64,000 nt of DNA, taken from assembly GCA_033807695.1 (NCBI GenBank), contig CM066311.1, forward strand, positions 2,046,001 to 2,110,000, given 5' to 3'. A program made the translations under genes and the position numbers. The notes under the pieces were generated by a model that ran no database searches, had not been told where the DNA came from, and worked only from the letters and a program-made list of their open reading frames with translations. This DNA is from Daedaleopsis sinensis (taxonomy: Eukaryota; Basidiomycota; Agaricomycetes; Polyporales; Polyporaceae). This document shows, piece by piece, positions 11,746 through 63,700 of this stretch (position 1 is its first letter; every line of letters begins with the position of its first letter).

Positions 11746-13049
11746 TTTGAATATTCTATCCTGGATCTGCAGAGCCAGTCTCAGATCGTCATGGTAGGAG
11801 GTGAAGCTTTGAAGAAGGGTTGACCGAGGTTTATGTGTTCGGGTGGAGTGTCCTTGGTCTTGTCAATGGGCGGTGTCCCGGGTCTCGACGCATCGGAGAG
11901 CAACCACCCGAGCCTGCAATCCCCATTTGGCACCTAAACACTACCTAGTGACTACACTACCTGGAGGATAGCGGTATGGTTTGTAGGATGTGCAACGTCG
12001 TGAGGAGGCTCAACTCATCTCTGGTGGCCCGACAATGCTCATGTCGTGCGTAGTAAGTACTTCCACGTGTTTTGTTTGTGAGGTTTTTCCATCATCTGGA
12101 TACCGCTGATCATGATCATGCACAGAACAGCGCTCTGCGTCAGTAGTAGAAGATTCTCTCCCCCTCATGGCCGTCTCTGCCCGGAGTTCAGAGGCCCCGA
12201 GTATTATGCTCGCTACTGGTCTAGGCGACACCACACGCAAAGTCCGTCAACGACAACCGCGCGATGTTAATCCATCCAACAGCTCACGAAAGTTGGACGA
12301 AGTGACTGGTACCTCGGTCATCAAAGCGGTCAACTTGGCCATGGTCGATCAATGGTGGATTTCGAAGTTCTCTGTGCAGATCCCAGCTGGTCCAAGCAGG
12401 TCCAAGCCTGCTCGGCCTTCCCGGAGCAGACCGTGTTGGAGCGCCCGCCTTGCTGTGCGCGCATGTTTCAGCCGAGTAAGTCTCACCTGCAAGCTTGTAT
12501 AGCCGACTGCAGCCCACTGCCCTCGGCCATCGCCTCAGCGGGCCCTTGTTGTCGAAACTGTAGAGGCCCACAGGGGCCCACAGCATCCAGGAATGGTGAC
12601 ATCTTGCCGCATTGCGCCGTTAAGCAAAGTTACAAGTAAGTAGGTCCACCTATCAAACTTCCTTGTCATGCTTTGCCAAGTTCTACTTCTTAGGTATCAC
12701 TTTCAAGGCCGCATCCTTTTGCGTGGTTCTTCGTAATGCTGAGCGTACCGCGCACGATAAGAATTTACGTATCGTCGACATGTGTCGTAAGTGCTCGGAG
12801 GAAGTGTGAAACATGCGTTCCGGCCTAAGGGCGGGGAGGGAATTTGATGTTGCAGGCGTCCGCGAGGGGCAAAGCCCATTGGTCAAAGCCCGGTCTTACC
12901 AATGCTTACCAGCTTGTGGGTATGCAGACCACCCCATGAGGCGTCCCGCCAGGAGCGCTGTTCAGGTTCCGAACATAGCATCAAAATACTTACGGTTGGT
13001 TCCCTGTTAAGCCGCCCGACTCCGCCTTGGAGGACGGAGTGCGCGCAAC
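11746..13049. other. Intergenic stretch between PIG-L and the first DUF3455 gene
   Basis: No gene is supported. Short open frames on both strands lack motifs. The right end carries the TATA element of the DUF3455-A promoter. Confidence 0.5.
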
Positions 13050-13056
13050 TATATAA
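13050..13056 (+). promoter_or_regulatory. TATA box of DUF3455-A
   Basis: TATATAA lies 120 bp upstream of the ATG at 13176, followed by a long pyrimidine-rich leader (about 13090-13170). This is the usual arrangement of a strongly expressed basidiomycete gene. Confidence 0.7.
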
Positions 13057-13175
13057 GCCCCCGGTTCTCATCCTGGCCGGTCAGCGCCCTACGCTTCTTC
13101 TTTCACGTTCTTCATACCCCTTTCTTCTTTCCCCCCCTTCGGACTACATCCAGCTCTTCCATTTTCTCTCTTACG

Positions 13176-14151
13176 ATGGTCGCTATTCCGAACGCCCTCT
13201 TCGCGGCAGCTTTCGCTCGCTACGCCAGCACCGCTTCCAGCGGAGCCAACTACTCTGTTAACGGCTACGACTGGAGCATGAAAGGCCAGTGGATCACGGC
13301 AGAGGGCATTGCCGCCTGCAAGATCGACAAGTTCGTGCCCAAGTTCCCCGAGAACCAGACACAGCTCGTTGCGCCATCGGCACCACCGTCATTCATCGGC
13401 CTCGCGTTCGGCGTGCAGAACTACACGTGCTCGCCCGCCAACAACTTCACGTACGTATTTCAATTTGTCCTCCCTTTGCGTTACGCGTACGATGCACCGA
13501 CGCTGATCGCACTCGCGCGCCCGCACATACAGAAGCACCGGGGCCGTTGCGGAGCTCATCGACGTCTCCTGCCAGGTCTTCGAGCCCGGCTTCGACACGA
13601 TTCAGCACGACCTGTACAACGTCTGGACACGCCTCATCCCGCACCCCATCCAGGCGATCATCGACCTCCTGCACCTCTTGAACCCCCCGGAGATCCTCAA
13701 CCAGCACTACTTCGTCCCGAACCCCGTCACGGGCCAGGGCCTCAGCCCGAAGTGGGACTTCACGTCGTCCGGGCTCCTCCAGGGCAAGAAGGAGGCGTTC
13801 GTCGTCGCGAAGGGCAAGGGCACGATCCCCGCGCCGACGGACCCGACCAAGGACGTCGCGTGGCTGGACGTGGTGAACGTCGAGGGCAAGGTCGCGAGCG
13901 AAGTCTTCCGGTTTGACACTGTCGGCGGCCAGCCGCCTGCTAAGGTACGCGGGATTATTTGCACCGACTGCGTTGCGCTTTGTGCTGACGTTGAAACCCC
14001 GCAGTGCACGCACGGCACTGACAAGGACATCAGCGTCAAGTATGTGGCGAAGTACAGTGAGTCGCGGCCCTCCCGTTGCGTGTTATTTCTTATACGTGAT
14101 GCTCACCAATCCCGCGCAGTCTTCTACGGCGGCTCAAGCGATCTCAATTGA
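13176..14151 (+). CDS. DUF3455-family protein A (often mislabelled malate dehydrogenase)
   Basis: Four exons, 13176-13450, 13533-13944, 14005-14056 and 14120-14151, total 771 nt (256 residues). The family signature is visible in order: FVPKFPENQTQLVAP, FIGLAFGVQNYTC, a Cys in DVSCQVF, NQHYFVPNPVTG, PKWDFTS, VAWLDVVNVEGK, FDTVGGQPP and KYVAKYIFYGG. Four cysteines are shared with the two paralogues downstream, which suggests two disulfides and a secreted or cell-surface protein. N-glycosylation sequons NQT and NYT are present. The biochemical role of DUF3455 is unknown. The N-terminus is longer than in B and C (an extra NGYDW segment), and the hydrophobic start is weak for a signal peptide. Confidence 0.9.
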
Positions 14152-15656
14152 GCACGGTCGGCCTGCGTGTTGAGCGGGGGAAGTTGAGGATTGTCTGGAG
14201 GTTTGTTCGTGAACATTGAACGAGCGATGTTTTCAGTTTTGCATTTGCTTTTTGCAGACTTTAGGACTTAATGGCCTCGTCGCTCGTAGTCTTTATTTGT
14301 AGCCTTATCATGGACTTTAGTAGATACTGTATCTCACATTATAACGTCATTTTCTCAGCGAAGTACTTGAAGTTGAAGTCGACGTTTGTCGTTCGTGAGC
14401 GGAGCGCCCGCTTCGGGTTATGCCGGAGAAGCTGCAAGCGTCACCGCGATCTGCATGAGCCAGGCCTGAGCTGCCACTGTCACTGCACCCAACTGCCACC
14501 TCAGGCTGTAGCTTGAACTATCACTCGCTCGCCATCCTCGGACATCGTCGACGGTTTGATCATACCCTTTCCACCCATACGCGTCTCCATCTAGTAAGGA
14601 CGATGAGTGGGATAAGTTCTATTTTTTGCACCTCACGCTTGAGCGGATCCGGAGTGGTGGTCGACGGCAAGGCGAGTCAGCACCATCATGACAGGTAAGT
14701 ATTTGCGATGATGAACCTTTTGACACCTCCGCTAAGTACAGCCTAGTGCAGCTGCAGGGGCATCTTGTTGGCCGTTGGCCGTTGAACGTTCTCTGCCAGA
14801 GGCATACCTACCATCAACCTGCAACGTCAACCCGCTAGTACCATGCGCACGTTCGTCTCGGACAACGGTTCGACTTAGGCTTGGGACAATAAGTACCGGT
14901 GTGCGCTGATATCAAGGCGAATGCCGTTGTATATCACTGAGCATTAATATTACGTTTCAAGTTGAATCAACGCGTCCGTATCGGAGGAGAAATACTTAGG
15001 TAAAGTACGTACTTACATACTTGCTAATTTCCGATGCCGTCGGTTGCGGATAGAAGCTAATACATATGTAGGAAGACTTGTGAGATTCACCACATCAATC
15101 GCTGTTATCAGGCACCGAGGTCGATCCTTGTTCCCAAGGTGATTCAAAATTTGTGCCCAGACCGAATGTATGCGTCAAATATTGAACTCTGCCACGTGTA
15201 GGTACGTAGGCTAGCACTGCAACCAGATCTGCGGGCTTCTCACCCCGCCGTCTTACAAAATCCTACACGAGCACAACACGAGCATACGCAAGACGCTCGA
15301 AAGCAACGGAAACTAGCAACGGTGTATGTCTAGGACATGAAACATATGCTTATGGTTCACCCCGGACTATGGTACAGGCACCGACCAATTTAACAGCATA
15401 CCGAGAACACATCAGGGACGTCTGAAATCTGCCACGCCGCCTATCATCCACGCTTCCACTAGTGCTCACTAGTACTCTACTTAATATTAACTCTGCAGAG
15501 CTGCCATGATCTCAACATTCTATCACATCAGGCTCCTCAAGCAGACCACCCACCCCACACCGTTCACATAAATCATGAGAGGCCCTTCGCCCAATATCCA
15601 CCACGACACTCGCCACCTCGCCCCTTACACTCGTTCATCTTCACACCTGATCGACC
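14152..15656. other. Intergenic stretch between DUF3455-A and -B
   Basis: About 1.5 kb, lower in GC than the genes. No reading frame with splice support is seen. It probably holds the 3' UTR of A and the promoter of B. Confidence 0.5.
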
Positions 15657-16575
15657 ATGGTGGCCATTTCTAACGTTTTCACTGCCGGTGTTGCCGCGAT
15701 CGCTGCTCTGAACCCACGGGCGGGTGGAAACTGTTCGCTCGCGAACTACAAGCCTGTGTTCCCAACGAACCAGACGACGCTCGTCGCGCCTGCTGCCCAG
15801 GCCCCGAAGTTCGTTGGTCTCGCGTTCGGTGTCCAAAACTACACGTGCTCAGCTGCGTCGACCTACACGTACGTCTGCTCGCCTTCACACCACTGCCCGT
15901 CGGGGTCGCATGTTCAGGTTGTCGCTCTGATTCAAGCACACATACTGACGAGTCCCTGTCGTCTGTAGTTCTGCCGGAGCCGTTGCGGAGGTCTTTGACG
16001 CGTCCTGCTTCGCGTCGATGCCGCAGTTTGCGACGATCCAGGCCAAGGCCTTCGACTTCTGGAACACGACCGAGACTCCCCCGATCCAGAAGATCATCAG
16101 CCAGCTGCAGGGCTTGCACAACGCACCCGTCCTCGGCCAGCACTACTTCGTCACGAACCCCGTCACCGGCACGGGCATCAACCCCAAGTGGGACTTCACT
16201 TCGGCGAAGTTCAAGGGCAACGCAAACGCGTTCTTCATTGGCGCCCCGAAGGCGAACATGCCCGCGCCGACGAACCCCGCGCAGAACGTCGCGTGGCTGG
16301 ACGTTGGCAAGGTCCAGGGCGCGCTCGCGGACGAGGTCTTCCGCTATGACACCGTCGGCGGCCAGCCTCCCTCCTCGGTATGTTTGCATATTGTCGACGA
16401 CTGCTACGGTTGTTCTCCGAGTATGCTCATGTATGCGCACTTCTAGTGCACGCCTGGAACCGCTCTGTCAGTGAAATATGTCTCAAAATACGGTGCGTTC
16501 CTCCTCTAGTCACGTTGAAGTGTGCTGACCCATGCTCCGTTCTCGCGTGCAGCTTTGTACGGTGGCTCTATCTAG
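15657..16575 (+). CDS. DUF3455-family protein B
   Basis: Four exons, 15657-15868, 15969-16377, 16447-16492 and 16553-16575, total 690 nt (229 residues). Intron positions and phases match those of A and C exactly, so the genes are tandem duplicates. The sequence follows the family order: CSLANYKPVFPTNQTTLVAP, FVGLAFGVQNYTC, GQHYFVTNPVTGTG, PKWDFTSAKF, VAWLDVGKVQGALADEV, YDTVGGQPPSS and KYALYGGSI. The four conserved cysteines are present. The ATG sits in a CCATGG context directly after a C-rich leader. It is much closer to C than to A. Role unknown. Confidence 0.9.
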
Positions 16576-17454
16576 TCGGCCGGCTCGCTGCTAGTGCGGC
16601 GGTGTTAACGCGGTCATTCGATTAAAATCCACTAGCTAGCATCCCCCATCTGCCTTGGAAATTGTGACATCGTTGGTCTACCTGCTTCGTCTCACAGGTA
16701 GCTGGAGTTGACACAGTATCGTTAGGTCAGCCGCCGAGCTCAGCGACCTGAGCTACATCGTACCAACTTACCACTTGCTCCTTATACCCACTCACCAGAG
16801 CTTATAGCTACTACCTGAAATGTATTGTGGATAGTCTGCGCATTATGAGGCTATGGTCCCCACGTTGGTCCCACCGGAGACGGACATCAGTAGGCAGCAA
16901 GGTTGGCCCATTGCGTTCTAGTACAGGATAACCCAGCCAAGCTCAGCTTTACGTACAAGCAAAAGCGAAAGCATAGGAAACACGAACTAGACAATGCAGT
17001 GAGCATGCCGATGCCTTGTACTCAGGCCATTCACTGAACTTCTTCGCGTGTTCTTATGACCTAGGCACTCAAGCACGGTGCCGCGTTCTGGACACAAACG
17101 TGGGTGTGCGTGAACCGTATTCTGTCACCGAGACAGTCATCTTGAAACACCTAGCCCTCTCCTAGTTAAGGACAGGGTACGTAGACCATCACCATTCGAT
17201 CGTGTAGCGGAAGCGCGTACATGTCGTTGTCAGAGGCTGCCACGGAGGACGGTCTAAGGGCTGATCCAAGATGTGCTTTGCCCTGGCGCACAGGCTAAGG
17301 CGGGAGCTCTCTGAACCGGCACTTGTGTCAAACTCTGTCCCACCTTGATCTCAGCCGAGGCACCGCGCCAGTTCACATCGACCCGTGCTCTCAGCGCTCA
17401 GCAGTCGCTGAACCCGCGTCTCAGGATCGGCTCCTTGTACAACGCTCGGATGCC
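16576..17454. other. Intergenic stretch between DUF3455-B and -C
   Basis: Nothing beyond the 3' region of B and upstream region of C is supported. Confidence 0.5.
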
Positions 17455-17461
17455 TATAAAA
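17455..17461 (+). promoter_or_regulatory. TATA box of DUF3455-C
   Basis: TATAAAA lies 122 bp before the ATG and is followed by a pyrimidine-rich leader (17500-17580), the same layout and spacing as the DUF3455-A promoter. Confidence 0.75.
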
Positions 17462-17582
17462 TGTGCGGGGAGGGGCCCTTGCATCCTCAACTCGCCTTTC
17501 GTGGGTTTCTCTACTCTCCGCTCCCCTTGTCCCTCAACCGTCCTCCGTTTCTTCGCTCGCTCATCTTCGCCCTTGCTTTGCC

Positions 17583-18491
17583 ATGGTTGCCATCGGGAAT
17601 GCTCTCGCCGCCGCCGCCGCCGCGGTCTCCTCCTTGAACCCCCGCGGGGGTGGGGGTTGCTCGCTCGCCCACTACAAGCCCACGTTCCCTGCAAACCAGA
17701 CCACGCTCGTCGCGCCCGCCGAGCCGCCCAAGTTCGTCGGGCTCGCGCTCGGCACGCAGAACTACACCTGCTCCAGCGCCGGAACCTACACGTGCGTCCC
17801 AGCCGGGTCTGCTAACCGTGTGGTGCACGCTGATCTGACAATGTCCGCCCGCCATGCACAGCTCCGCCGGGGCCCTCGCCCAGGTCTACGACGCGTCCTG
17901 CGCGACGTCGACGCCCCAGTTCGCGCAGGTCCAGGACTGGGCGTACGCGCTCTTCACCGAGCCGTACGCGCCCAGCGTGCTGACGATCGTCCACCTGCTC
18001 CCGGGCTTCGAGGGCGCGCCGCTCCTCGGCGAGCACTACTTCGTCACGAACCCCGTGACGGGGACCGGGATCAACCCCAAGTGGGACTTCACGTCGGCCA
18101 GGTTCAAGGGCAACCCGGACGCGTACATCATCGGGGCGCCCAAGGGCAACATCCCTGCGCCGACGGACCCGACGAAGAACATCCCCTGGCTGGATGTCGC
18201 GCATCTGCAGGGCGCGCTCGCGGACGAGGTGTTCCGGTACGACACGGTCGGCGGGCAGCCGCCCTCTTCGGTATGTCGTTCGTCCGATGGCATGGAGCTG
18301 CTGCTGGCCCTTGAACGTCGAACGTCGAACGTTGAACTGCGCTGATGTGGATTGTGTGTAGTGCACCACGCCCGGCTCTGGCCTCACCGTGAAGTATGTC
18401 GCGAAATACGGTACGTCTGCCTCGTGTGCGACTCGCCGCAGAGGACGCTGCTGACACATGTTCAGCACTGTACGGCGGATCTATCAACTGA
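17583..18491 (+). CDS. DUF3455-family protein C
   Basis: Four exons, 17583-17791, 17862-18270, 18362-18410 and 18466-18491, total 693 nt (230 residues). Same architecture as B: a short Ala-rich N-terminus, CSLAHYKPTFPANQTTLVAP, FVGLALGTQNYTC, GEHYFVTNPVTGTG, PKWDFTSARF, IPWLDVAHLQGALADEV and a KYALYGGSIN end. The Ala run near residues 8-14 is coded by (GCC)n repeats. The second intron contains a short tandem GAACGTC repeat (about 18310-18340). Codon use is the most GC-biased of the three. Function unknown; probably extracellular, by inference from the paired cysteines and sequons. Confidence 0.9.
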
Positions 18492-30395: not shown

Positions 30396-30475
30396 TAGCA
30401 ACTCCTGGTTTCGATCCAGGGACTTCAGGGTATCAAACATATGAGCCCTGCACGCTTCCACTGCGTCAAGTTGCT
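30396..30475 (-). tRNA. Initiator tRNA-Met (CAT) with an 8-nt intron
   Basis: The minus strand folds into a complete cloverleaf: a perfect 7-bp acceptor stem (AGCAACT with AGTTGCT), D stem ACGC/GCGT with loop AGTGGAA, anticodon stem CAGGG/CCCTG with loop CTCATAA once an 8-nt intron after position 37 is removed, and T stem CCTGG/CCAGG with loop ATCGAAA and discriminator A. The A1-U72 pair, three G-C pairs below the anticodon loop, and A rather than T at the start of the T loop mark an initiator, not an elongator. Mature length is 72 nt before CCA addition. Confidence 0.93.
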
Positions 30476-30889: not shown

Positions 30890-32583
30890 CTACAGCCGAC
30901 TCCTCTCCGGATGCCTCTCGTCAGCCCTCTTCAGCAGCCTCCGCATGAGCGCGACCCACTCCTGCACCCCACCCTCGCCCTCGCCTGTACCGACGCCCCG
31001 CACCCACTCCTCCGCCTGCCCGAGCCGCTCCAGATCCCGCCACTCCTCGCGCAGGATGCCCTTCGCGTCGTACATCTCGATCTCCCAGGCCGGCACGCGG
31101 TGCGGGTGCCCCGCGAACGCGTGCATCGCGTCCCGGTATGCGAACTGCTCATGCCCGTCGAACCGGTGCCACGCGCTTGCAATCGCGCGTTCCGTCGGGT
31201 CCGCGTCCTTCCTCTCAGACTCAGGCTCAAGGGGCTGATCATTATCGGTGGAGTTATCAGGCTGCAACATCCGTGCACGGAGGGCCTCGTAGCGTGCGAT
31301 GATGTCGACTGCCTCTTGGGTCAGGTCGAGGCTCTCTGGGCGGGCGAAGACGTGCAGCACGGCGCGCATCTGCGCTTCTAGGAGCGGGAGGGGTGCGACG
31401 CGGATCGGGAGCCCGATGAACGCCAGGGTCGAATAGTATGACTCGTCCGCGGCGACGAGTGGGAAGACGTGTTTGGCAAGCGGGAACACGTGGTAGGTCG
31501 AGTTGTACAGGGCATCGGGGAGAGGTGGAGCGGGCGGTGGGAGGATGCGGCGCACGATGGATTCCGGGAGGAACGGAAAGTCCATCTTGTATCCGGTAGC
31601 GAGGACGCAGCGGTCGATGCCAGACTCTGCGCTGCCATCTTCGAAAACCACCCGGCCGATTGCGGGATCGTCATATCGTGCGATGCGTCCACGCACCTTG
31701 AGGCGACCGTTGTGTAAGTCCTCCCGTACAGCACCGGTGACGGAGTGGACCACGGAGCGACCGGAAGCAAGGAGGTCCGTGCAGAGGTCTTGACCGCTGG
31801 GTCCGGCGCCCACGACGACGACGGTACGAGCATCGCCGAGGTCGGATGGGTTCCGGTAGAAGACAGAGTGCATGGCCTTCTTTGTCTCCGTCCACCTTTC
31901 AAGTCCAGGGGTGGGCGGGACGCGAGGAACGCGATAGTGTCCGTTCGCGACGATAATATAGTCGAATGTGTGGGATTCTTCCGATCCAGATTTTCCGTTA
32001 CGCACTGCGACCGTCCAGCTTGGAGTAGCATGATCGCGCGCGACGGAGATCACAGGAGTATTGAGGCGGATATGCGGGTTGAGCTCGAAGTGGGCAGCAA
32101 AATCCTCAAAGTACTGTAGGACCGTGGATGCGGGAGGGAATAGTGATGTCCCCGCCGGGAATGAATAGGAGGTATACGCCATCACTGGATGTGGTAGATT
32201 CGTGGTGAGTGAATCATACAAAGGCGTCGGCGGAGGATCGTGCGTCGCTGGGGCGGGAAGCCTGTAAACGACAACATCAATTCCAGGGTTTACTGTATGA
32301 GACTATGGGGATGTATCCCAAAGTCAGACTCACCATATTCCCCCGATTCGGGGACGAGCTTCAAAAGCAGTGACCGTCCAAGATCCACTTTGAGACTGTG
32401 TTGAGTCCTTGATAATCTTCAGTGCTGCCAACCCAGACGGGCCAGCACCAATAACGCATATCCGATGTTGTTTTCTACTAGTAGGCCAGGAAGTTTCGAG
32501 CGCTGCGTCTTCAAGTACAGTTCATGAGCACCCGGAGTTTTCACTTAAGCCAACTGACGATATGTACTCGGTAATAAATCCAT
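30890..32583 (-). CDS. Flavin-containing monooxygenase (FMO)
   Basis: FAD- and NADPH-dependent monooxygenase of the FMO class, expected to oxygenate soft nucleophiles or carbonyl compounds. The FAD motif ICVIGAGPSGLAAL and IGGIW come from the upstream exon. The large third exon carries the second dinucleotide motif VVVVGAGPSGQDL and the ATGYKMDFPF motif. Proposed exons are 32583 to about 32568 (MDLLP), about 32510-32334, and about 32262-30890. An in-frame stop upstream of exon 2 forces a separate first exon; the ATG at 32583 with a GTACAT donor is the best candidate but not certain. The segment equivalent to the class motif FxGxxxHxxxY is altered (KAMHSVFYRNP). It is divergent from P450-5, sharing a ~430-bp promoter region. 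Confidence 0.85.
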
Positions 32584-45692: not shown

Positions 45693-48295
45693 CTACAGCG
45701 TGATGCTCAGCTTGCTCTTCAACAAGCGCGCGCGCCGCTGCGCAAAGTCCTCTCCGGCGAAGCGCGGCTCGTCGCGCAGCGCGACGCGATAGCGCGACAC
45801 GAGCAGCGTGAGCGCCGCGACGGACTCCGTCTCGCTGAACCCGCGCCCGATGCACCCGCGCGGCCCGCCCGAGAACGGCAGGAACGCGTCGCGCGGGTAC
45901 TCGCGCAGGAACCGGCCCGGGTCGAACTTGTCCGGGTCTTCCCAGTACTTGGCTGTGCGGCGTGCGGGAGGGAATGCGCGAAAGCGGGGAGAAGGAGGGA
46001 GGAACGGGTGAGCTGCACTGGGCATGGCGCGTGGGGAAGGGGCACGCGGGCACGTACGGTTGTTGTGCAGGCCGGGGGTGTGCACGGTGACGAATGTGCC
46101 CTTCGGGACGGGGATCGTGCGCTTCTCGCCCGCCGCGTTCGTCGTCGTGAACGTCGTGTCCTCCGCGCTCTGCTTCGGGATCGTGATCACGGGCGGAAAG
46201 AGGCGCAGCGTCTCGTTGAACACGCTGTTCATGTCACGAAGCAGGATGAGGATCGGCATCATCAGCATCGCGGCGTAGGCATGGGGTCGGGACATGGATC
46301 GCGACGCGCGCGGAATGGGTACTCACGCCATGCTATACGAGAGCGTCGAGAACTGCTCATACGTCTGTGGAAGTGGTGATCGTCAGCACGGCCGCAGCGA
46401 CACAACGGCCAGCGAGAGACGTCAGTGCGGGCAGGGGGGGCGTGATGCGACGACCAAGACAGGCAGGAAAGACGCACCGGGGTCGTGCAGTCGCCGAGCA
46501 CCTTCTTGATGTTCTGGTAGAATTTCTCCTGCTCGTCCGGGTAGAGCGCGAGGAGGATGAACGCGTACGCGAGCGTATGTGCACTCGTCTGTCACACCCG
46601 AGGAAGTCAGAGGTCGCACAACCAGGATCGTCAGTCACCGCTCGCAGTGCGTCTGTACGCGACATACCTCGTATCCTGACGGGCGCAGAGCTCAGTATGG
46701 GCACGAGCGAGGAGAAGAGGACCAGAGAGCTAAACCCACTCACCTGCGATCATGAATACAAAGACGTTCCCGAGCAGCCCGTCGTCCGACAGCTTCTCCC
46801 CGCTCTCAGTCAGCCCCTCGTTCGCGTCCAGCAGGCTGCTGAACAGGTCGTGGCGCTCCTCCTTGACTTCCGTGCTGCGCCGCGCGGCGACCATCTCCTG
46901 CATGTAGCACTATATCGCAGGGGTTATTTGTGTAAGAGCGTGAGGATGCACGCGGGACAGAATTGTGCGCACCTGGAGCTCGTTGGTCGCGATGTAGAAC
47001 TGGCGCATGAGCGGCGTGCCCCACCGGAGGAGCCACGTCGGGAACATGAGCTTGAGAAACAGGTTCCGCGAGACGATGTGCAGCGCTTGCTACACGGGCG
47101 TAGACTCGGACGTGAGCATGTTACTCCCTCGGCACTCCCGCGCACAATCGCACAGGCGCACCTTGAACGTCATCTTGTGGCCCGCAGGCGCGATTGCGTC
47201 CTCCTGCCACGAGATGCGGCGCCCGAAACCCGCCACGCCGATGATGAGAAGGGTGATCTGCGTGCGACCGCGCCCGGGAAAGCACATGGCTCAGATAAGA
47301 TAGAGACATGTTTGGTACGATCGCGACGTACGGGTACAGTCAGGTCTGTGATGTTGTCGATCTCGACCGTGTCCTTGTCGCCCCAGACGTTGTCCCACAG
47401 GTCGTGCACTATCCGGACCGTCTCGTCCCACACCAGCTTGTTGTTTTTCTGAAGACGAACGCGCCCGTCAGCGCGGCCTTCCCCGCATCGAGCAGAGCAG
47501 AGGGAACGAAGGCCGAGGGTTCGGTGTTTCGGGCAAGGTTGACCGCGAGGGTTGCGGGTGGACGGACGTGAGGAACGAGGGACATACCTCCGAGAATGCC
47601 GGGGCCACGAGCTTGCGCTGACGTTTCCACTCGTCGCCTTCAGACGCGACGAGGTTCGGGCCAAACGCGAGGAGGATCTTGTACGGGCCCATCGGTTTCG
47701 GAAACCGCGAGCGCGCCCCGATGACGTCCTGCGCGCACGAGTGCCGTCACAAACGTGTGTGTGGGTGAGCCTGCGCAATGCTCCGAGCTCGAGAAGAGAA
47801 GAAGGCACCTTGATGACTGCGGGGTCGGCGAGGTACAGCGTGACCTCGCTGGAAGGGAAGATGTTGACCTGGGCGGCGATAGGGAGGGATCTATGAATGA
47901 AGAAGCAGGCGAAGCAGAACGCGTGGCGCGCACCCCTGACATGATGTCCCAGCCGCCTTCCTCAAAGTCCTTGTACTTCCGGTAGAGGTTCAACTCGGAT
48001 TGGACCCCCGGGGAGACGCCACGGACGCGGAATGGAAACCATACGAAGCGGTCGCTGAAAAGCGTGCGGAAGCCGGGGAGGTTGCTATATACGCGTGCGC
48101 GTGCGTGTCGGGGAGAGATCATTCAAAGCCATAAAAATGGGCGGTGACGTGAGGGGGTGAGACGCGTCGCGGGGGTCAGTTAAGCAACACTCACTTGACA
48201 GATGCGGCGGCAGCACGAAAGTCGATGAACTTGCGGAGGAGGAAGATGGCGACGATGATCCCGACGACGGTAAGGGTCTGCTTATTCTCGAGCAT
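45693..48295 (-). CDS. Cytochrome P450 (P450-6)
   Basis: Close paralogue of P450-5. The start is the ATG at 48295, with anchor TLTVVGIIVAIFLLRKF. Landmarks are LPGFRTLFSDRFVWFPFR, FGPNLVASEGDEWKRQRKL, KNNKLVWDE, ITLLIIGVAGFGRRISW, the I-helix IAGHETSAHTLAYAFILLAL, the ExxR motif NETLRLFPP, YWEDPDKFDPGRFL, and haem signature FLPFSGGPRGCIGRGF. The last residues are LKSKLSITL, stop at 45693. The exons follow the same boundaries as in P450-5. The I-helix has Glu-Thr-Ser in place of Glu-Thr-Thr, a common variant. A long antisense open frame over this gene is a GC-bias shadow. Confidence 0.88.
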
Positions 48296-49498: not shown

Positions 49499-51708
49499 TC
49501 AAATGGGATCCTCTCCAGCCAATTCGACGTAGCTCAGCATGCTCTCGTGCTCTTTCGAACGAGGCCCCACGTCGCACTTGAATGGCTTCGGGGAGCTACG
49601 AACGCGCATACATGAGCCTGCTTTTCGACGGACCCAACCACATACATAGCAAGAAGCGCGTACCTGATCACTCCCCCAGTATACTCCCCACAGGGCACGA
49701 TCTCCGTCCCGTGCTCGTCACGGGCCCGCGCTATGTCGAACGTCGCGAGGATGCTGACCATGGAAAGCCACAGCGACTCGAGCGCTAGGAACCGCCCGGG
49801 GCATACCCGACGACCGAACCCGAACGCAGCGACGGACGGGTCCTGCACGTCCAAATTGAGCGTGCCGTCCCGGTTGAGGAACCGCTCGGGGTCGAAAGCG
49901 GAGGGGTTGGGGTACGCGGCTTCGTCCTGCAGGATTGACCTTCGGGGGGACGTCAGACGAGTGGACCGTTGTCGACCATTTGGGCACGCACTCACCACAC
50001 ATTTCCGATGACAGTTGACCCTTTGGGGATCAAGTATTCGCCGTACACGTCGTCGGCCGTCGTCATGTGCGGCACCGCTGTGGGTTTGTTCAACTATAAT
50101 CAGTGTTCTTGTGGATGATGCGGGACGGTGGACAGAGACAAACCAAGAGGCGCGATAGGCCGCCATCGAAGGACCTCTTTCAGTACCGCCGTAGTGTACG
50201 GGAGGGCATCCTTGTCGGAGAAGTCAGGGAGACGGTGCGGTCCGACGACCTTGTCAATGTCCTCTTGAGCTTTCCGCTGCACGTCCGGGTGAAGGTTCAT
50301 GGCAAGGAAGAACGTCTCTAACGTCGCAACAACCTATATATGTAGGCTACCGTCAGTGAGATTATCATGGGCCCTGGTGCATGCTCTACTCACCGTTTCG
50401 GAACCCGCTGTGGTGGACAGTTGTACAGGCATTGCGTCAGCGGCTGGTCATCGCACCGTTATGGAAAGTGCTAAATCGTACATACCCAGATACAACGAGC
50501 CCAGAGCGGAACGAATTGCCCAGTCCCCCGGATTCGCGTCCCCCGCGCTCTCCTGCTTCTCACAGTACGTTTCAATTAGCGATGTCGTCGCGCATGGTCC
50601 AATCTCGCCAGTCGTCTGAGACGTAACACCGCAGAAGTGAGTCATGCGCATCCTTTGAAACAAGAAGCTACCCTACCATGCGCTCGTAGGCCATGTCAAG
50701 CGGGTCGTGCACAACCCGGTCGGAGATGGCGTGCATCCGATTAGCTTCTCGTTTGAAGGCGGCACCGGGGAACCACTCGGGAATGTACCGCACTATCGAG
50801 ATGTGAGCACAATGGCTCATATCTGACAGCGCGGAAGTAGGACGCACAGATGGGAAGCAGGTCGACCCAGCGATACCCAGCAGCGAGCTGGTCGATGACG
50901 AACCGCGATGCATTTTCAGCCATCACGAAGTACGGGTCGTCGTGCGTCTTGACGTTGATGTCATAAGTTATGGACAAGATCATAGATCCCGCCCAGCTGA
51001 GGAATGAGGTCAATAACGGAGATACAGAAGCGAGTTAGTATGCGTACAGATGAATAGCCTGCGCAAAGTCATTTCCGTCCTGGAGCAAGTCGAGTAGTAG
51101 CCATCGAGTAGACTTAAGCTGGTGGGGACGGAACTGTGACACGGAGTCTGAGTTGAAGTCGTGGCGCGCCATCTTTCGGGACTCTCTCCAGGCGCTCCCG
51201 TACGGAAGACCGCCCATCGACCAGTCAAGTCCGCAGAGATTGTTGTACATTGTCATCTGCGGTCTGCGGGACTCCACCTCAGCAAAATAAGTCTAGTAGG
51301 CACTGGCAACGACACAATGCTTGCACGAACCTGTCCGAGTAGACAGTCGACCTCTTTTCAAACAGCTCGTTCGCAATGCTGAGAGAGTTGACTATAACGA
51401 TGTTGGTCCCCAACGCGCTGACGCGGATGATATCGGAATCTGTGTGAATCATACATGAATTCGAAGACTGCCGAGGCTTTTGCTCGGATGAACTACGCAC
51501 TGTATTGACGGCTCCAAGCTCTGTATGTTTCCCAAGGCTTGGAGTCGGGGTTCGGTATTTGGAACAAGTTGCCGAGCAGTGGTAGTCCTCGAGGGCCTGG
51601 AGGGGTTCTGAGACGAGACACTCTCAAACGGCGCGCGCCGATGTAGCTGCAGAGCATTGCAAGAGCAACAGCGATGATCGCGAACGGATCAGACGGTATG
51701 AAAGGCAT
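49499..51708 (-). CDS. Cytochrome P450 (P450-7)
   Basis: Microsomal P450 of the same broad group as P450-1. The ATG at 51708 opens an anchor ([17 protein letters not shown]) and [18 protein letters not shown]. Then follow [42 protein letters not shown], the I-helix AGSETV (Glu for Asp, Val for the second Thr; microexon 50394-50407), EVLRW (ExxR), FDPERFL, and [11 protein letters not shown] (haem Cys within one exon). The final exon restores [15 protein letters not shown] and stops at 49499. Without this last splice the open frame runs into unrelated sequence. It is more diverged from P450-1, -3 and -4 than they are from each other. Confidence 0.88.
50394..50407 (-). other. 14-nt microexon of P450-7
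   Basis: Completes an alanine codon and encodes Gly-Ser-Glu-Thr, at the same site and phase as the other three microexons. Confidence 0.85.
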
Positions 51709-52798
51709 GCTGTTGAAGGTAGAAGGTGAAGTTCGAGATTGAGAGGGTCGTGCAGCACCCTGTGCTCATAAAGAGGGCTTAAGTACCGGTACGGTTAGGT
51801 TTCGACTTTCGAAGCGCTGCTGAGCTCCAATCGAGGATCCCGAAGAAGGATTACACTTGCAGTGTAGGTCTGCTACGTGTGTGTCTGCGGAGCCTCGAGA
51901 CATCGACGCGACGTCACAGTGAAGGAACTATGCGAACCTTCGAATGCGCCTCGGCGGAAGAGGGGGACTGGGGGTGGATCGGGCCTGTGACCCTGCTGCA
52001 CCAAGTCTTGGGGGTCTGGGAAGCGGGAGTACGGAATCTATATAGTCTTCGGTTCGCACGACCTCTTCATAGGAGTACGCGCCTGCTGATGCTAAGTACA
52101 TAAGTATCGAGAATGTGAGCAATGCAAGTAGTAATCGCAGAGTTGAAGGCCAATGGGAGTGCCAATCACCTTACTAGATCGTTGTTGTCTTTGAATATTG
52201 GTGTAAGTTGTGACACATCGCATCATCCACGCATGATGTTCTGAGTACCAGCTTAACGGAGCACCGGTGCTTCAAACCACAACGTGAAACACTTCAACCT
52301 GACACTGGCAATCGATCCAATTCAAGTTCACTTCCCCGCTGCGATAGTACTATCGGTCAAATAGCGTACTGCGTGAGCAGTGGCTGCAACATGTAGCTCT
52401 TGCCTCAGGCTGGAGTTCTGAACTGACTGAATACTCGTTCGCCGCTCCTAAGATGTTTTCCGCAGTCTGCGTGGCTTCAAGCTGTTGAAGTCGCTGAGGG
52501 ACTTGGACTCGGAGAGGTAGTAGTACTGTCGCAATAAGTTACCTAGTAAATAGTACTTTTATATGAAGGGGACTTACTACACGCATTGTTGCTGAGCAGT
52601 TAGCCATAAGATGAGCACGATGTTCGCGTGTCTCTACAGCCTGAGTGAGACGAGCAATTAATCATGATGAGCAGGAGGTGGTGGAGGTTGGGATTAGGGT
52701 TAGGGGAGACCTGGGGAGACCGAGCGCCTGTGTAGAATTCACTTTGGCCGCAACCAGTCTTACTACAAGCTAATATCCTCGTTCGCCTCATCCTCTAT
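51709..52798. other. Divergent region between P450-7 and the BTB gene
   Basis: No supported gene. Two adjacent TTAGGG-like units occur near 52691-52702, too few to call a telomeric array. Confidence 0.5.
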
Positions 52799-53922
52799 AT
52801 GCCAGACATCATTGCATCTCCGACGGTAGAAAATGGCGCAGAGGGTAAACCAGTCCCTGCACCTGCCCAGGCCCATTCGTCGCCGCCGGAGGATAAAGTT
52901 TGGGACTCGGATGGCTCTGTAGTTCCTGACGACCTCCTATGGCTCGACGACGGGAACATTGTACTCGTTGCTGGAAATGCCGCATTCAAAGTCTACAAGG
53001 GGCTCTTAGCCGCACAATCCCCCGTCTTCGCCGACATACTCTCCACGGCCAGTCCTGACACCGATCAGGAGCTTTACAACGGTACACCAGCAGTCCGACT
53101 ATACGACTCCCCCACCGACATCAGGTTCTTCCTCCAAGCTCTTCTACCGACGGCTGATATTGAGTATGTAATCTGCTCGCACGTCCCCAAACCCACACTG
53201 ATACGTTGACTCTGATGTGAACCTACTTTCAGCATCTACCGCCGTTCCGATCACAGGGGTTACGACTTCGAGAGGCTTTTCTCGGTCACGCGTCTAGCCA
53301 ACAAGTATCAAATCGTCGCCCTCGAGCAGCAAGCCATCGAATGTCTGAAGGAGTACTTCACGCACAAGTTCGAGGTATGGGAACAGGTGAATCGGCATCG
53401 ACAGGTCATCGAGCTCGAAGAATACACCACGAGCATTGGGGTAGTCCGCCTCGCACGTCTCACGGGGAACTTCAATATGCTTCCCGCAGCGCTCTACGAC
53501 TGTGTCATGGTTGGCGACGACGTCGACAACGGCTGGGTCCGTGAGGACGGGTCCGTGGAACACCTCGACGCGGACGATTTGGAACGGTGCAAGAGCAGAG
53601 CGGCTCCCGCACGATCCACCAGGAACGTAACGAGATCTTGGGCGGCATCCACTCCTCGACTCCCTCCACCGACTGCCTCACTCCAGACCAGTGTACGAAC
53701 TCGCACATAGAACTGCGGAGGACCGCCGTCGACGGCGGCAAATGGTGGATGCCCCTCGCGTCTGAGTCGTACTTCGTCACGGATCCAGCATGGTCCGGGC
53801 TGTATCCCATGTGCAGCGAGTGTCGAGATGCTTTCATCGAGCGGGATCGCGAGGTGCACCACGCTCTTTGGGGGAGGCTGCCGAGCCTCTTCAACTTGTC
53901 CTTTGAGGGATGGGACGAGTGA
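52799..53922 (+). CDS. BTB/POZ-domain protein with an apparent frameshift
   Basis: Exon 1 (52799-53163) encodes an acidic N-terminus and a BTB core (WLDDGNIVLVAGNAAFKVYKG, QSPVFADIL), a protein-interaction fold often used by Cullin-3 adaptors. Exon 2 starts at 53233 with IYRRSDHRGYDFERLF and continues through NKYQIVALEQQAIECLKEYF. At about 53585-53595, after DADDLERC, the coding-looking sequence moves into another frame, which then runs through TDQCTNSHIELRRT-like text, YFVTDPAWSGLYPMCSEC and a stop at 53922. No GT-AG intron explains the shift. It is either a disabled gene, a sequencing error or an unusual splice. The family is greatly expanded in Agaricomycetes. Confidence 0.7.
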
Positions 53923-54613: not shown

Positions 54614-56055
54614 ATGGCCTTCAAGTCGCTTTGCTTGTATTCTGCCGTATTGCTCTACGTCTTCGCCCTCCTTGCCTCGGTGAGTCGTGAACGGCTGCAT
54701 TCACCGTTGTATTCCTGTACTAACACTGCTGGTAGTCTTCCGGCGCCGGCCTAGTCAAGCGCACTGACCTGCGCGACGAGCTGGACCGCCCAGTGTACTC
54801 CTGGATGATTGGCGAGGACGAACAGGATCGTTTGACTGACCTTCTTGAGCACGACTTCCACGCGGTCGGCGTCGCCGGGACGTACGTCACCGCCCCGCCG
54901 CACAGGTGCGCCCGCTGCGGCAAGGAGACTGAGTTCATCGACTGGTATGTGCCGAGTATTCCGCATCCCCTCTGTTCAAGCTGTTGCACTACCTCTATCT
55001 CACGCGATATTTGCACTCACGTTCAGGGTCTACACCGCTCTTGCTCGCGGGGTCCATTCCCGCGAGTTCATCGTTGAGTCTCTCAAGGCTGGGCGTACCC
55101 CTGAGAGCGTCCACCACGACGTGTACTGCTCTCGCTGCGGGCACTTGACCCACTTCCGTGACCATTCGGGTCATGAGGGCGGATTCATGCATATTTCCCA
55201 AGCTGCGGTACGTTTCATGTTTATTCCTGCTTTCAAGTTGCGTATGCGCCGGCGGGGCTTAGTCTGTGTAACTATCTCGCTTCAGCCTTACGACCGTGCG
55301 ACGAAGACATTCGAAAGGTCTGCTTTCAAGCGCGATGCCGAGGGTACTACTGAGGTACGTTATATTTAGGAGGTTCGAGGGGAGCTTGTGCTAAGTGTCG
55401 TGTCTATCCGTCGTCTCACCCTCCCTAAGGCCCCGCTCGAGAAGAAGGCCGAGAACGCCGGGTGGTGCCAGCGCTGTGTCTTGGGGAACTGGATCATCAA
55501 GCGTGAGGAGTCTGACGAGGTGCGCACACGCTCAAGTACTCCTATCCTCAACCAAGTTGAAGTTAATGCTCTACTGTACAGGGCTCTGGGATCTCTCAGC
55601 GTCTGGAGAAGAAATCGGAGGACGCGGGCTGGTGCCAGCGGTGTGTCTTGGGAAACTGGATTATCAAGCGCGACCAAGAGACGAGTACGGTGACTCCGGC
55701 GGGAGTCGAGGTACGACCTCCGTTCCTCCCGAGGTCCCCCGATAACTCATATATCACATGTCTCGGGGCGGTGCCGCTGCAGATGGACGAGAAGCTCGAG
55801 AAGAAGGCCGAAAACGCAGGGTGGTGTCAACGCTGTGTCCTGGGTAACTGGATCATCAAACGCGACTCGGAGTCGATCGAGGTGCGCACACATGCGAATT
55901 ATCTGGTATATGAACCATGTCGAGTCTCCGCTATACAGGAACCTCCTGTCTCCCAGTCCCTTGAGAAGAAGGGCGAAGACGCGGGTTGGTGTCAGCGCTG
56001 TGTCTTGGGGAACTGGATTATCAAGCGCGATCCTGTTACCGCTGCTGAGCAGTGA
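54614..56055 (+). CDS. Secreted CxRC-module repeat protein with Kex2-type sites (unknown family)
   Basis: Eight exons, 54614-54679, 54736-54944, 55027-55207, 55286-55354, 55430-55519, 55582-55710, 55783-55881 and 55939-56055, give 319 residues in frame. Residues 1-22 form a signal peptide (LYSAVLLYVFALLAS). Lys-Arg follows at 30-31. CARC (80-83) and CSRC (126-129) are single modules. Four near-identical units then appear, one per exon, each with LEKK, AGWCQRCVLG and NWIIKR (Cys pairs at 188/191, 223/226, 263/266 and 299/302). Lys-Arg followed by Asp or Glu recurs at 167-168, 199-200, 234-235, 274-275 and 310-311. The repeat exons are phase 0 at both ends. I do not recognise the family; a processed peptide precursor or a metal-binding secreted protein are both open. 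Confidence 0.88.
55430..56055 (+). repeat. Four tandem exon duplications encoding the CQRC unit
   Basis: Exons 5-8 (55430-55519, 55582-55710, 55783-55881, 55939-56055) share a ~65-bp block coding the same peptide unit. Exons 5 and 7 also share the donor-side intron start (GTGCGCACAC). Conservation of the block is far higher than that of the linkers between units. Confidence 0.9.
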
Positions 56056-56555: not shown

Positions 56556-58006
56556 CTAGAGCTTTCGCCTCTTCTTCGCTCCCTGCTCGCCATCCGAGTT
56601 CCCATCATCCTGACCACTGGCATTGCGCGCCGTCTCGTCCTCCTCGTCCGCGTCGTCCTCCTCGCGTGCACGCTTGCACGAACGTACATGGTCCCTCGAC
56701 GAGCCCTCGACGAACTCCGGCAGTGCCTGACCTGGGCTAGAGACGAAGGCGCCAGGAAGGAGGTCGTACGATCCCGGGACCGAATGCTGGCTGCGCGGGG
56801 TGTTGAAAGTGGTCCGCGGGGCTTCCGACGCTGGGCGTTGCAAAGTGAAGCTGATTGACGGGCGGCCGTGGCCGTACGGCCGCCGGCTGGAGGTGGACCT
56901 ACGGGAACGCGTACGTCTCTTCACCACAATTTCCTCTGCGCCGGGGGAAGGGGAGTGGTGGACGGAGGTCGGGATGGGGGCACGGCGTCTGTGCCTGACG
57001 GCGGGATGCTCGGACTCGTCCGCGGACGAGACAAGAGTCATGTCGGTGTCCATGTCGTGCGTGTGCGAGGGCGAGGGCGAGGTGCTCCACTGCGAAGAAG
57101 ACGCAAACGAGGACCGCCGGGATGTTCGGGACGCTGCGGACCCGCGTCGGAATCCCCCATACGCTGTTGCGAGGTGGCGCTCCAGGAAGGCCCGGGTCCG
57201 GTCTTCAGAGAGGAAGAAGTCATCCGGGATGGCTTTGAACACGCTGCGCGGGTCGGTGTCCGCCTCGTCCTCGGGGTCGGTGGCGTCGCTGCCGGCGTCG
57301 ACGAGGCCGCCCGAATAGTCCGGGTTCTCCCTCCGCCAAGCTGCGGTGTTCATCAAATGCCTGAACACGGGCACGCCAGAGCTGTCCTTCTGCTTTGGAA
57401 GAAGGATATCGAACGCCGCGTTACGCGCCTCGCGGTTGAACTTGAAGTGGCCGTTGATGTAGTCGAGGACCTCCGTGTGCGAGGGTAGGCCGTCGGTGTA
57501 GAGCGCGACATCTGAGAGACTTGGGACGGGTCCCCAGTCGTTCCTCCAATAAGGGGCTGTAGAGAGAGAGAGAGTAAGTAGCGGTTGCTTGTCAAAGATA
57601 GACGATTGTGCGTACTCGGAGTAACGATAGGCGGGGGAGAGGGCCCTCTCTGCGCCACTGCTGGAGTGGCGGATAGGAATTCGTATTCAAAGGGGCCCAT
57701 CTTGATATACCCGCCTTCAGCTTCAAGAATTGGTTCGGATTTGGGCTTCGGAGGAGCATTAACTGTGACTGTGGCGGGGTCCTGGTAGGGAGCAATGATA
57801 CTTTCGAGCCCGATGGTCTCTAGTCAGAGGGATGTGAATGCCAGCTATCGACTTCTGCTCACCTCCTGATCAACGCTAGGAGCGAGAACGATGCGGAGGT
57901 GGCATTCGGGGTGGTATTGTTACCAGCTATTGTGCTAGACGTCAGCATAACCGTCAAAAGGACCGGGCGTAACAATAAGAGACGTGCCTGTAGGCTTTTG
58001 AGACAT
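56556..58006 (-). CDS. Hypothetical nuclear-type protein with C-terminal NLS
   Basis: The last exons (57545-56556) encode a conserved-looking segment (PYWRNDWGPVPSLSDVALY, EVLDYINGHFKFNREARNAAF, ILLPKQKDSS) followed by a low-complexity Ser/Arg/Asp-rich tail. Candidate nuclear localisation signals are VKRRTRSRR and KKRRKL at the C-terminus. The preceding exon (about 57795-57612) gives GGYIKMGPFEYEFL and joins in frame. The first ATG is probably at 58006 (MSQKPTGTS), but the splice joining it to the next exon could not be settled. No known domain recognised. A chromatin or transcription role is only suggested by composition. Confidence 0.6.
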
Positions 58007-60706: not shown

Positions 60707-63700
60707 TCACACGGCTTCCTGAAGGCACCCTCGCACTGCACCCTTGAGCACTCTGAGGACCTCTCGCCTGCGAACTTTATCCTCGGGGAGCTCGAGCACA
60801 CCCGTCGCGAGCTTGAAGAGGTACGCGAAGTCTGCTTGGGCGACGACCGGGAGCCGTCCCGACGCCTTGTTCTTCTTGCCCTCGATCTTCTCCTGGAAGT
60901 GCTTCGCGAAGTCCTTGGAGACGACGTCTGCGCGCTCGACGACCTCGAGAGGCACCCCAGCTAGGTTGGCGACGTGGGTTCCGAATGAGGAGCTGGCGAC
61001 GCCGTCGACGAGCTTGTACAGGAAGACCAGCTGCAGAACGTGATGAGTGAGTTGCAGGGGAGACACGGTACGAAAAGGCGGCCTGCCTCTCTCTTCTCGT
61101 CGTCCACGAGTGTCTTCATGTGCATGTTCCGCACGTTGGGGTGGTATGCGTAATCGTCCGTCAGCGATCCGTAGTGAGTAGCGAAGAAGGACAGCGATAG
61201 AGTATGCGTCGCGAGCTGATGCAAGACAGCGCTCGCGATAGCCATCCCATCCTGTTGAAATACAATCAGCATCATGGACGCGTGCAAGGATTGACGCTAC
61301 CGACATATGTAGACGTTCCCCGTCCAAGTTCTGGTATGGTATCAGTATTGCGATCACAGCGGGAATATATGAGAACGTACCGTCCAAAATGACAAACGAT
61401 TTCGGTGTTGCATCCCGCAGGATCTTACAGCTGGACGCATGCTGTCAGACAATAATTGCGCTCATTCGTCGATATATTCCTACCATTCATCAAGTTCCAC
61501 CTTGAACGTGCTGGCGTTGGAGAACATGTTGTCGTATGCGCCCATTCTCGTCAAGATCGAATCGACGGGGCACAATCTGAGCACGGACATTGACTCAGTT
61601 CTAGAATTCCGTCAATGCGACCCTTAAACCAAAACCTACCGAGCGCTCTTCGCTGGAACTAGCATGCCGAGTTGCGCCATGATCTACGCAGGTTACATTT
61701 TCAGCAATGCGATCGGTACTGCACTTGCTAGCCACTTACGATTCCGGTAGCAGTCATACGCATGGCCTGTGACAGATGTCAACGCCTACGCCGCAGACAA
61801 GAGGTGCAGACACTCACTGTAGACTTCCCTCTGCAAGTGAAATGTCTTCGATCAGCGAAACATTCGACGGGAAGATGGAGTTGGCTTACCCCATGTTGGG
61901 ACCTACGAGCGTTCGGTCAGCACGCTCAATCATACGAGGCTCAATCATACGAGGCGTGAATCAACGCACCAGTGAGCAACGCGATCCTCCCAACATCCCC
62001 ACCGAGCTTCACATTGTTCGGGATGAAATCGCCCTTCAGCGACGTGCTCGCGCACAGCGCTGGGTGTCTCAAATCCTCGAAGTCGATGAACGCTTGGTCG
62101 CCCTCGACCAACTCAGGCCGGCATGCCGGCTCCCCAAGTGCGCTGGACGCTTTCGCGAGGCTGAAGAGACAGTCGAGCTCCGCGAGGACGCGAATCGCTC
62201 GCAGCCAGACACTACGATCGGCGTCGAACTCGGCGAAGAGTCGGTTTTTGAACTCCTTGATTGCGGTATTGCGATTTTCGCGCGCCTCTTTGAGCTTGCG
62301 GATCGTTCCCTGCAGAGCAGGCACGACGTAGCGTTTGGCATTCTGTGGGCCGATGCAAGGTGTTAGCGAATTCATGTGCGGAAAAACAGGGTGGATTCGG
62401 TCACCTTGATTGTGCCACTGAGCGTCCATCCCTTCGGGGCCTTGTCCTTTTCCTTGCCTTGCAGTTGAACAAGATAGATTTCCTGCACCGCGATGTTGAG
62501 TCACGCGGGGCCACAGGCTTGACGAACGCCTACCTTGGTTCCTTGGGCACTGTGCCAGTACGAGGCATCCAATCTAGAGGCTACATTAGCATTCATGGGT
62601 GTCTACAGGAACGCACGGACGACGTACCCAGTCTCCCTCCGAATCTTCTTCAGCTCCGCCTTGAGCTCCTCCTCTAGGTCGTTGATCTCCGACATGATGT
62701 TGTCATAGATCTCATCCTTGCCGTCCTCCGGAACAAGCTCGTCGCTATCTACAGCGAGTTCGTCAATATTCGAAGTGGAGCCAATATTGGGCGTCGCCTA
62801 CTATCTTCCGGCGTCTGGAACATAGCTTTAACATGCTTGAGATTCTGCGTCAGGTTGGGCGCGGTGCGCAAGAGGCCCGGGATGGTCTTCGATGCGAACG
62901 AGTCGGCTGTATCGGCCAGCTCTGACAGACCTTTACTGAGGTTCTTGAATGCCTGCGGAGATGGTTCAGATGCGTGACGATACGAAGCACGACAGACATT
63001 CACTGACCGTGAGGACCTTCAGGAAGTCTTTGACCTTGCAGTTCTTCGCATGGATGCGCGACACGATGCGCTCTAGGTCGGGCAACCCCTTCGCGACAGA
63101 TGTGAATTGCTGTTCGAACGTTGGGTGGTCGAGCAAATCTTGAATGGCGTCGAGCCGAGCATTGATATCCGACACCTCACGCAGGGGCATGCAGAGCCAG
63201 ATACGGAACAGGCGTTTGCCTAATGGTGCTTGAGCGAGCACGGTCAGGACGGGCAGTGCAGGGAACGTACCAGACGGGGTGATGCACCGGCTCAACAACT
63301 TCAGGAGCGTCCCTTCTTCGGTACCTTCGCTGTTTTGTAGGACCTACAGAAGCTATATGAGAATAGGTCGTGCTCTCGAAGGCGCACAGACTTACTTCGA
63401 TGTGAGCAAGAGTCTGACCGTCAAGGACAAGACCCTGCCCTCGCTTCATCGGATCGTACACGTTGAAGTTCTTCATGCTCAGGATATCCTTGTCGATGTT
63501 GAGCGTATGCAAGTACCTGACGAGAGCGCTTCAGGACGTCGTCGCAAGGCATTAAACGAATGAAACACGAACCAGATCATCGAACCCAATGACTCAATGG
63601 CGCACTTGTGTGGCAGCAGTCGCCGTATTGACTCGGGAACTGCGTTGCTGAGACCATGAGGGTTGTCGGCCATCTCGTCATCGTCATCGTGGGCGGGGAA

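Follow-up and report, generated by a model that had tools for sequence, protein, structure and literature searches.

A probable Kex2-processed repeat precursor with a conserved cysteine-containing leader and gene-specific tryptophan cores in Daedaleopsis sinensis and other Polyporaceae

What kind of product is encoded by a gene that joins a signal-like N-terminus to four nearly identical cysteine-containing units, each closed by Lys-Arg? This question is raised by a gene at positions 54614-56055 (+) of a 64,000-nucleotide stretch of Daedaleopsis sinensis DNA, the whole of which is called the window here. We found that the gene runs from ATG to TGA through 8 exons with a 319-residue open frame, and that its 7 introns, of 56-82 bp each, are all of the GT-AG type (Table 1). 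The original prediction, made from the sequence alone, had placed the gene at exactly these limits, with eight exons; transcription and splicing of this model are predicted. It had also proposed a TATA box, a signal peptide and four near-identical units on separate phase-0 exons, all of which we recovered: TATATAA precedes the ATG; the N-terminus reaches a maximum 12-residue Kyte-Doolittle mean of 2.48, which is signal-like by hydropathy alone; and exons 5-8, each entered in phase 0, each encode one LEKKxExAGWCQRCVLGNWIIKR copy, giving one CQRC unit per exon. KK precedes and KR closes all four units, and the residue after KR is E, D, D and D, respectively, in agreement with the predicted Asp or Glu.

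Table 1. Features of the precursor gene and of other open reading frames (ORFs) in the window
Feature	Position	Strand	Basis or remark
Putative TATA box TATATAA	54549..54555	+	Pattern match, 65 bases 5' of ATG; putative function
Exon 1: hydrophobic N-terminus, probable signal peptide	54614..54679	+	Hydropathy
Exon 2: end of signal region and first half of domain, C80-x2-C83	54736..54944	+	Gene model; invariant residues in alignments
Exon 3: second half of domain, C126-x2-C129	55027..55207	+	181 bp, phase 2 entry
Exon 4: end of domain (PYDRATKTF) and spacer bearing a KR	55286..55354	+	Gene model
Exon 5: unit 1	55430..55519	+	Predicted 17-mer AENAGWCQRCVLGNWII 55448-55498; KR 55499-55504; predicted cleavage
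Exon 6: unit 2	55582..55710	+	Predicted 17-mer SEDAGWCQRCVLGNWII 55615-55665; KR 55666-55671; predicted cleavage
Exon 7: unit 3	55783..55881	+	Predicted 17-mer AENAGWCQRCVLGNWII 55807-55857; KR 55858-55863; predicted cleavage
Exon 8: unit 4, stop codon at end	55939..56055	+	Predicted 17-mer GEDAGWCQRCVLGNWII 55972-56022; KR 56023-56028; predicted cleavage
P450 match	45693-46322		Window ORF, Pfam
P450 match	49534-50223		Window ORF, Pfam
MutS domain V match	60707-61444		Window ORF, Pfam
MutS III match	61941-62573		Window ORF, under cut-off
BTB match	52736-53209		Window ORF, under cut-off
FMO-like ORF	30890-32302		Farther from gene

The protein had been described as built from CxRC peptides, with six CxRC pairs. 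All six are present (CARC at 80-83, CSRC at 126-129 and four CQRC), but the first two fall outside the peptide units, inside a conserved domain of ~130 residues (residues ~23-161) ahead of the repeats, and their cysteines are invariant even in relatives of a non-secreted kind described below. A reading with six peptides was therefore rejected, and the description as a chain of CxRC peptides had to be given up for the N-terminal part. Membership of the units in a zinc-finger family was rejected as well; the whole window protein scored 22.4 bits against PF06827 (zf-FPG_IleRS; cut-off 21.3), no single stretch was above the cut-off, the best one sitting in the repeats, and other zinc-ribbon-type matches were under their cut-offs.

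A search of the same genome with the domain gave 13 strong matches (E 1.4e-8 or better; four weak ones, at E 0.026-1.44, are left out of this count) at seven loci, including that of the window. Relatives of the domain are found in many Agaricomycetes, and many of them bear the precomputed Pfam label PF26731. In the protein database, PF26731.1 was carried by 13 of the 14 relatives from a first search, by 42 of the 58 from a profile search that scored just the 7997 candidates with most words in common, and by six of the seven (five of them new) found with a paralogue leader as the query; in alignment A1, 11 database relatives at 44-83% identity bear the PF26731 label. The assignment to PF26731 is thus a precomputed label on relatives, not a score of the window protein against the model, and no mention of this number was found in the literature searched. 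A 17-sequence alignment of the domain has 23 invariant residues, which include C80, C83, C126, C129, R54, K85, E88, D91, W92, R99, H102, H122, D123 and E142, and 22 are invariant in a 37-sequence alignment including more distant relatives. A mere carrier would not need so many invariant polar residues, suggesting that the domain may itself act. Predicted models of two relatives gave no fold match in the PDB. In the predicted structure of relative P0004, the domain is confident and the repeat region has 10-residue pLDDT means of 33-49, with 60 for the last nine residues, low values being expected of cleavable cores. The length of exon 3 is identical in the modelled paralogues L015 and L016. In models such as P0041, P0042 and P0047, insertions that directly follow the IDW motif resemble an unspliced intron, in the position of intron 2 of the window gene.

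The relatives are of two kinds. Besides the window gene, the secreted type occurs in Daedaleopsis, Lentinus, Polyporus, Trametes, Cubamyces, Fomes, Lenzites and Dichomitus, the Dichomitus model stopping short of any core. A separately annotated relative from Daedaleopsis nitida shares 81% identity across 63% of the protein, and seven units are present in the Lentinus tigrinus relative. Four species that were checked (Daedaleopsis nitida, Fomes fomentarius, Lentinus tigrinus and Dichomitus squalens) are all Polyporaceae, to which we take the remaining secreted-type genera to belong. The non-secreted type, of ~200 residues with one WGKWWLDNNG-type tail at the end, was found in Collybiopsis, Serendipita, Gloeophyllum, Boletus, Peniophora, Rhizoctonia, Mycena, Hohenbuehelia and others, presumably members of other orders. 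W-x-x-WWL[DN] was present in 24 of the 51 other proteins fetched (the remaining 27 comprise fragments of the secreted type as well as models that are truncated, retain introns or are odd in other ways), and none of these 24 non-secreted relatives has a dibasic pair within ten residues from WWL on. At the N-terminus, hydropathy peaked at 2.15-3.14 in 13 secreted-type proteins versus -0.38 to 1.78 in 23 of the non-secreted type, of which 22 stayed at or below 0.85. P0003, P0012, P0015 and P0017, with missing N-termini, were called secreted by domain similarity, and the models of P0005, P0007, P0015 and P0017 end ahead of any core. In a tree of 44 domain sequences, one branch splits both kinds with 100/100 support; the tree is midpoint-rooted and so shows no direction of evolution. 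A non-secreted query against the D. sinensis genome returned the same seven loci alone (13 matches), and no non-secreted copy was found there.

In this genome, locus L014 (G000 C12:2272211-2275938) has two copies of the leader domain in tandem, close to a Tc-type transposase ORF. In the stretch read, the first lacks a W-x-x-K-[KR] core, and the second has a core-like sequence broken by a stop; both copies are apparently decaying. L017 (G000 C12:2170022 region), ~70 kb from the window gene, has the second half of the leader across two frames and a Trp/dibasic core-like sequence downstream of it; the first half was not found, and the locus is a probable pseudogene.

Selection on the unit, which the original prediction had suspected, is borne out by the substitutions among the four copies. 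The core AGWCQRCVLGNWIIKR is identical at 16 of 16 residues, and each of the 10 variable columns among the copies of its 16 codons is synonymous, giving pS 0.64 and pN 0.00 when summed over the six pairs of copies, a pattern with a rough probability of ~1e-7 under equal rates at all sites. For the 23-codon block LEKK...IIKR, pN is 0.03. The 16-codon core is thus under strong purifying selection among the copies, and synonymous sites near saturation argue against recent gene conversion among the units. For comparison, pS and pN are 0.63 and 0.11 for the leaders of L015 and L016, and 0.48 and 0.12 for the six L016 cores. Among introns 4-7, five of the six pairs were inside the range of 100 shuffles, the exception being introns 5 and 7 (66% alike). 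With unit 4 as the query, the 51.6-Mb genome gave four matches, every one inside the window gene.

We found that the cores behind the conserved leader differ from gene to gene. CQRC units are present in the window gene, Lentinus, Polyporus, Trametes gibbosa and Daedaleopsis nitida; orthologues without KR and Cys pairs, which would have counted against the original prediction, were sought among the 13 units of the four CQRC-type relatives, and the Cys pair was kept in all of them, with KR replaced in two (one unit of P0001, which reads NWLIER, and one of P0004, with KK). In the genome of D. sinensis, contig C3 carries 11 LPKWRSAWLVKK-type units, and C11 carries six GWRPIWLIKK-type cores at one locus and TWSDIWNIKR/VWAHYWLVKK at another; other cores are PPVWRPLWTRKR in Cubamyces, PPRWQPYWTRKR in T. 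polyzona, and GWPAGFNWIYKR in Fomes and others. Behind the same domain there are thus also W-x3-W cores that lack Cys, and the Cys pair is not a constant of the family. The feature that most cores share is a Trp followed, after two intervening residues, by a dibasic pair. W-x-x-K-[KR] sites number 55, versus 1.36 expected by shuffling, in 15 family tails (those of the window protein, of L015 and of 13 database proteins that continue past the leader, copies within a protein not being independent and secreted-type proteins whose models stop before any core being left out). Asp or Glu directly follows 45 of the 55, and the 15 tails have 113 dibasic sites overall. At least one W-x-x-K-[KR] site is present in 13 of the 15 proteins; P0011 and P0012 have none and carry other repeats of their own with dibasic ends. 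Among 40 distinct cores, a list that leaves out the P0011 and P0012 repeats and the remaining core-like L017 sequences (W-x-x-K-R fits one of these too), the dibasic pair is preceded by W-x3-W in 24 and by W-x8-W in six, all CQRC, with 10 of other form. In P0012 (Cubamyces sp. BRFM 1775), whose cores are of the ESTYGWDTISCLTKR type, Cys replaces Trp ahead of the dibasic pair.

These patterns bear on whether the protein is cut at all. A secreted protein that stays intact, with its Trp/CxxC repeats as displayed binding modules (for example, at the hyphal wall) and a functional N-terminal domain, would fit the 24 non-secreted relatives, in which a single Trp tail without a dibasic pair indicates that the motif can work while attached to the domain, and the paralogues L015 and L016, in which most cores end in KK, not KR. 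However, most cores, even mutually unlike ones, are followed by a dibasic pair, usually with Asp or Glu next; 15 of the 17 CQRC units have a dibasic pair upstream as well; and the repeat region is modelled at low confidence, as if disordered. We therefore regard an uncut protein as unlikely.

Predicted cleavage at KR alone would yield peptides of 30, 33, 38 and 34 residues without KR (32-40 with it), whereas cleavage at both KR and KK would yield four 17-mers. Of the 17 CQRC units in five proteins, 15 have a dibasic pair no more than seven residues upstream, the exceptions being the two of T. gibbosa, and the upstream pairs of Polyporus (KK, RK and KK) are kept though the residues ahead of them vary. 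The 32-40-residue peptides proposed originally are thus right for cutting at KR only, but the upstream pair makes 14-17-mers as likely. KK is probably a less efficient Kex2 site. The genome has one match to the Kex2-type P domain (PF01483; E 6e-22). In PMC9769878, KR, RR and KK are named as Kex2 sites of KEP-type precursors, cutting at RR is shown in Pichia, KEP-derived peptides are detected in Pichia and mushrooms, and six other kep genes are knocked out in Coprinopsis without a phenotype.

Taken together, the homologues, the pS and pN of the cores, the excess of W-x-x-K-[KR] sites, the upstream pairs, the P0004 model, the P domain and the KEP precedent suggest, with a probability of roughly 0.78, that the gene encodes a KEP-type precursor and belongs to a Polyporaceae family whose members join a conserved, Cys-containing folded leader to repeated gene-specific Trp cores. 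As an interpretation of sequence features, this supports the secreted Kex2-type repeat precursor proposed originally; the KK core ends in several paralogues, P0011 and P0012 without W-x-x-K-[KR], the Coprinopsis knockouts and the invariant polar residues of the domain speak against it. The signal peptide of such a KEP-type precursor would direct it into the ER, a Golgi Kex2-type protease would cut after the KR ending each core and probably after the upstream KK as well, and a Kex1-type carboxypeptidase would remove the basic residues, resulting in secretion of four ~17-residue peptides ending in NWII, or of 30-38-mers if KR alone were cut. Each released peptide would have one CxxC able to close a disulfide, and its activity would most likely be extracellular, either in signalling or in interactions with other organisms.

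If the folded leader were instead the recognition or even the catalytic part of a RiPP precursor, the cores would be cross-linked or otherwise modified before release. A constant leader with switching cores follows RiPP logic, and the residues invariant in the two alignments (23 and 22) include R, K, E, D, H and Y, but the domain has no fold match. The family scan covered 10 of the ORFs in the window and 10 of those flanking five paralogue loci, and no UstYa-, tyrosinase- or methyltransferase-type Pfam match was found among these 20. P450 matches were confined to the window scan, with none beside the paralogues scanned; a channel-type ORF is also among the scanned window ORFs, farther from the gene, and three of these, including 56556-57686 (-), had no family match. 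The 10 paralogue-side ORFs gave a Tc-type transposase and two F-box-like matches under cut-off. Within this partial scan, no shared tailoring gene is visible. The absence of ustiloxin-type genes nearby, as originally noted, was supported: UstYa (PF11807) has at least 12 matches in the genome, none near the gene, the nearest on its contig being ~0.8 Mb off. We consider a RiPP precursor quite unlikely.

Elsewhere in the genome, paired PF11807 matches at G000 C8:1451042-1455938, C8:1543847-1544817, C12:1297417-1299960 and C10:3107483-3109130 are possibly separate dikaritin-type clusters. In the window, P450-like ORFs were seen by eye at 6.9-8.1, 24.5-28.3, 33.4-35.6 and 45.7-50.2 kb; three similar tandem ORFs at 13011-18345, with a YFVTNPVTGTGINPKWDFTS-like stretch in common (by eye), appear to form a local gene family; and tRNA-Met (anticodon cat) at 30396-30475 (-) is the sole tRNA gene found by ARAGORN.

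Fungal KEPs are mostly known as isolated repeat proteins without a visible origin. The present KEP-type family may have one, with a single well-supported split between non-secreted single-tail and secreted multi-core proteins, so that it could be traced, gene by gene, how a system of secreted peptides came into being. The non-secreted tail, W-G-K-W-W, fits W-x3-W, and since this motif is common to the tail and most cores, we propose that an ancestral tail became a released peptide. Judged by this short motif, the cores may descend from the tail, and the CQRC cores may have arisen through insertion between the two Trp. It is conceivable, if doubtful, that a lineage-specific peptide system arose in this way: a non-secreted domain protein with a single Trp tail gained a signal peptide and its tail multiplied with dibasic sites, the domain, evolved to hold that tail, becoming a folded leader that still binds the cores, shielding or modifying them, in the ER or Golgi; such exaptation would account for a constant leader while the cores switch among W-x3-W, CQRC and others. 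The family would let one test whether fungal secretory peptides can have a core-handling folded leader, and the domain provides a constant sequence handle for finding very different peptides of shelf fungi.

Among known systems, dikaritins and epichloecyclins (ustiloxin-type) likewise have multi-core Kex2-processed precursors, whereas here no UstYa/DUF3328 match is nearby and the core AENAGWCQRCVLGNWII has no Tyr. According to PMC9233826, a core Tyr for cross-linking is true of the ustiloxin and epichloecyclin types, and victorin differs. Ascomycete alpha-pheromone precursors share the multi-copy Kex2 layout, and some have two Cys; PMC6339444 describes alpha-type pheromones in which two Cys are conserved and, from a basidiomycete yeast, a Trp/Cys peptide. 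A signalling peptide of this type, used outside mating, would suit a multi-copy Kex2-type precursor whose core holds Trp and two Cys. However, the present protein is from a basidiomycete, has a large conserved domain in front and lacks STE13 dipeptides, EESDE, DQETS, DSESI and DPVTA following the KR sites with no XA/XP run, and this explanation appears improbable. In borosins, a large N-terminal domain and a C-terminal core are parts of one chain, and borosin precursors carry their own methyltransferase; here we found a signal-like N-terminus, many cores, dibasic sites rather than prolyl oligopeptidase sites, and, in Pfam scans of the window protein and 9 relatives, no methyltransferase match. 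On the features compared, the protein does not fit the dikaritins, alpha-pheromone precursors or borosins. With the PF26731 family the protein shares the domain and its four invariant Cys, differing from the non-secreted relatives, in which the N-terminus is not signal-like and a single WGKWWLD-type tail carries no dibasic pair.

The architecture had been thought undescribed, but KEX2-processed repeat proteins (KEPs) are already a named class (PMC6339444, PMC7329392 and PMC9769878), and the window protein has their sequence-level features. No description of the conserved leader was found in the literature searched, including passages of the main texts of PMC9769878, PMC6339444, PMC7329392, PMC12048977 and PMC9233826, nor was the word 'leader' found in PMC9769878 or PMC7329392; some of these proteins may figure as predicted KEPs in the supplementary tables of KEP surveys. 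The protein resembles KEPs of Agaricomycetes in its N-terminal signal, near-identical repeats, dibasic sites between them and Trp at or near the core end, published agaricomycete cores ending in ...APSW and ...AADW (PMC9769878). It differs from them in that two residues separate Trp from the dibasic pair, that a CxxC lies within the core, and that a ~130-residue domain with two CxxC pairs precedes the repeats and is common to genes with different cores.
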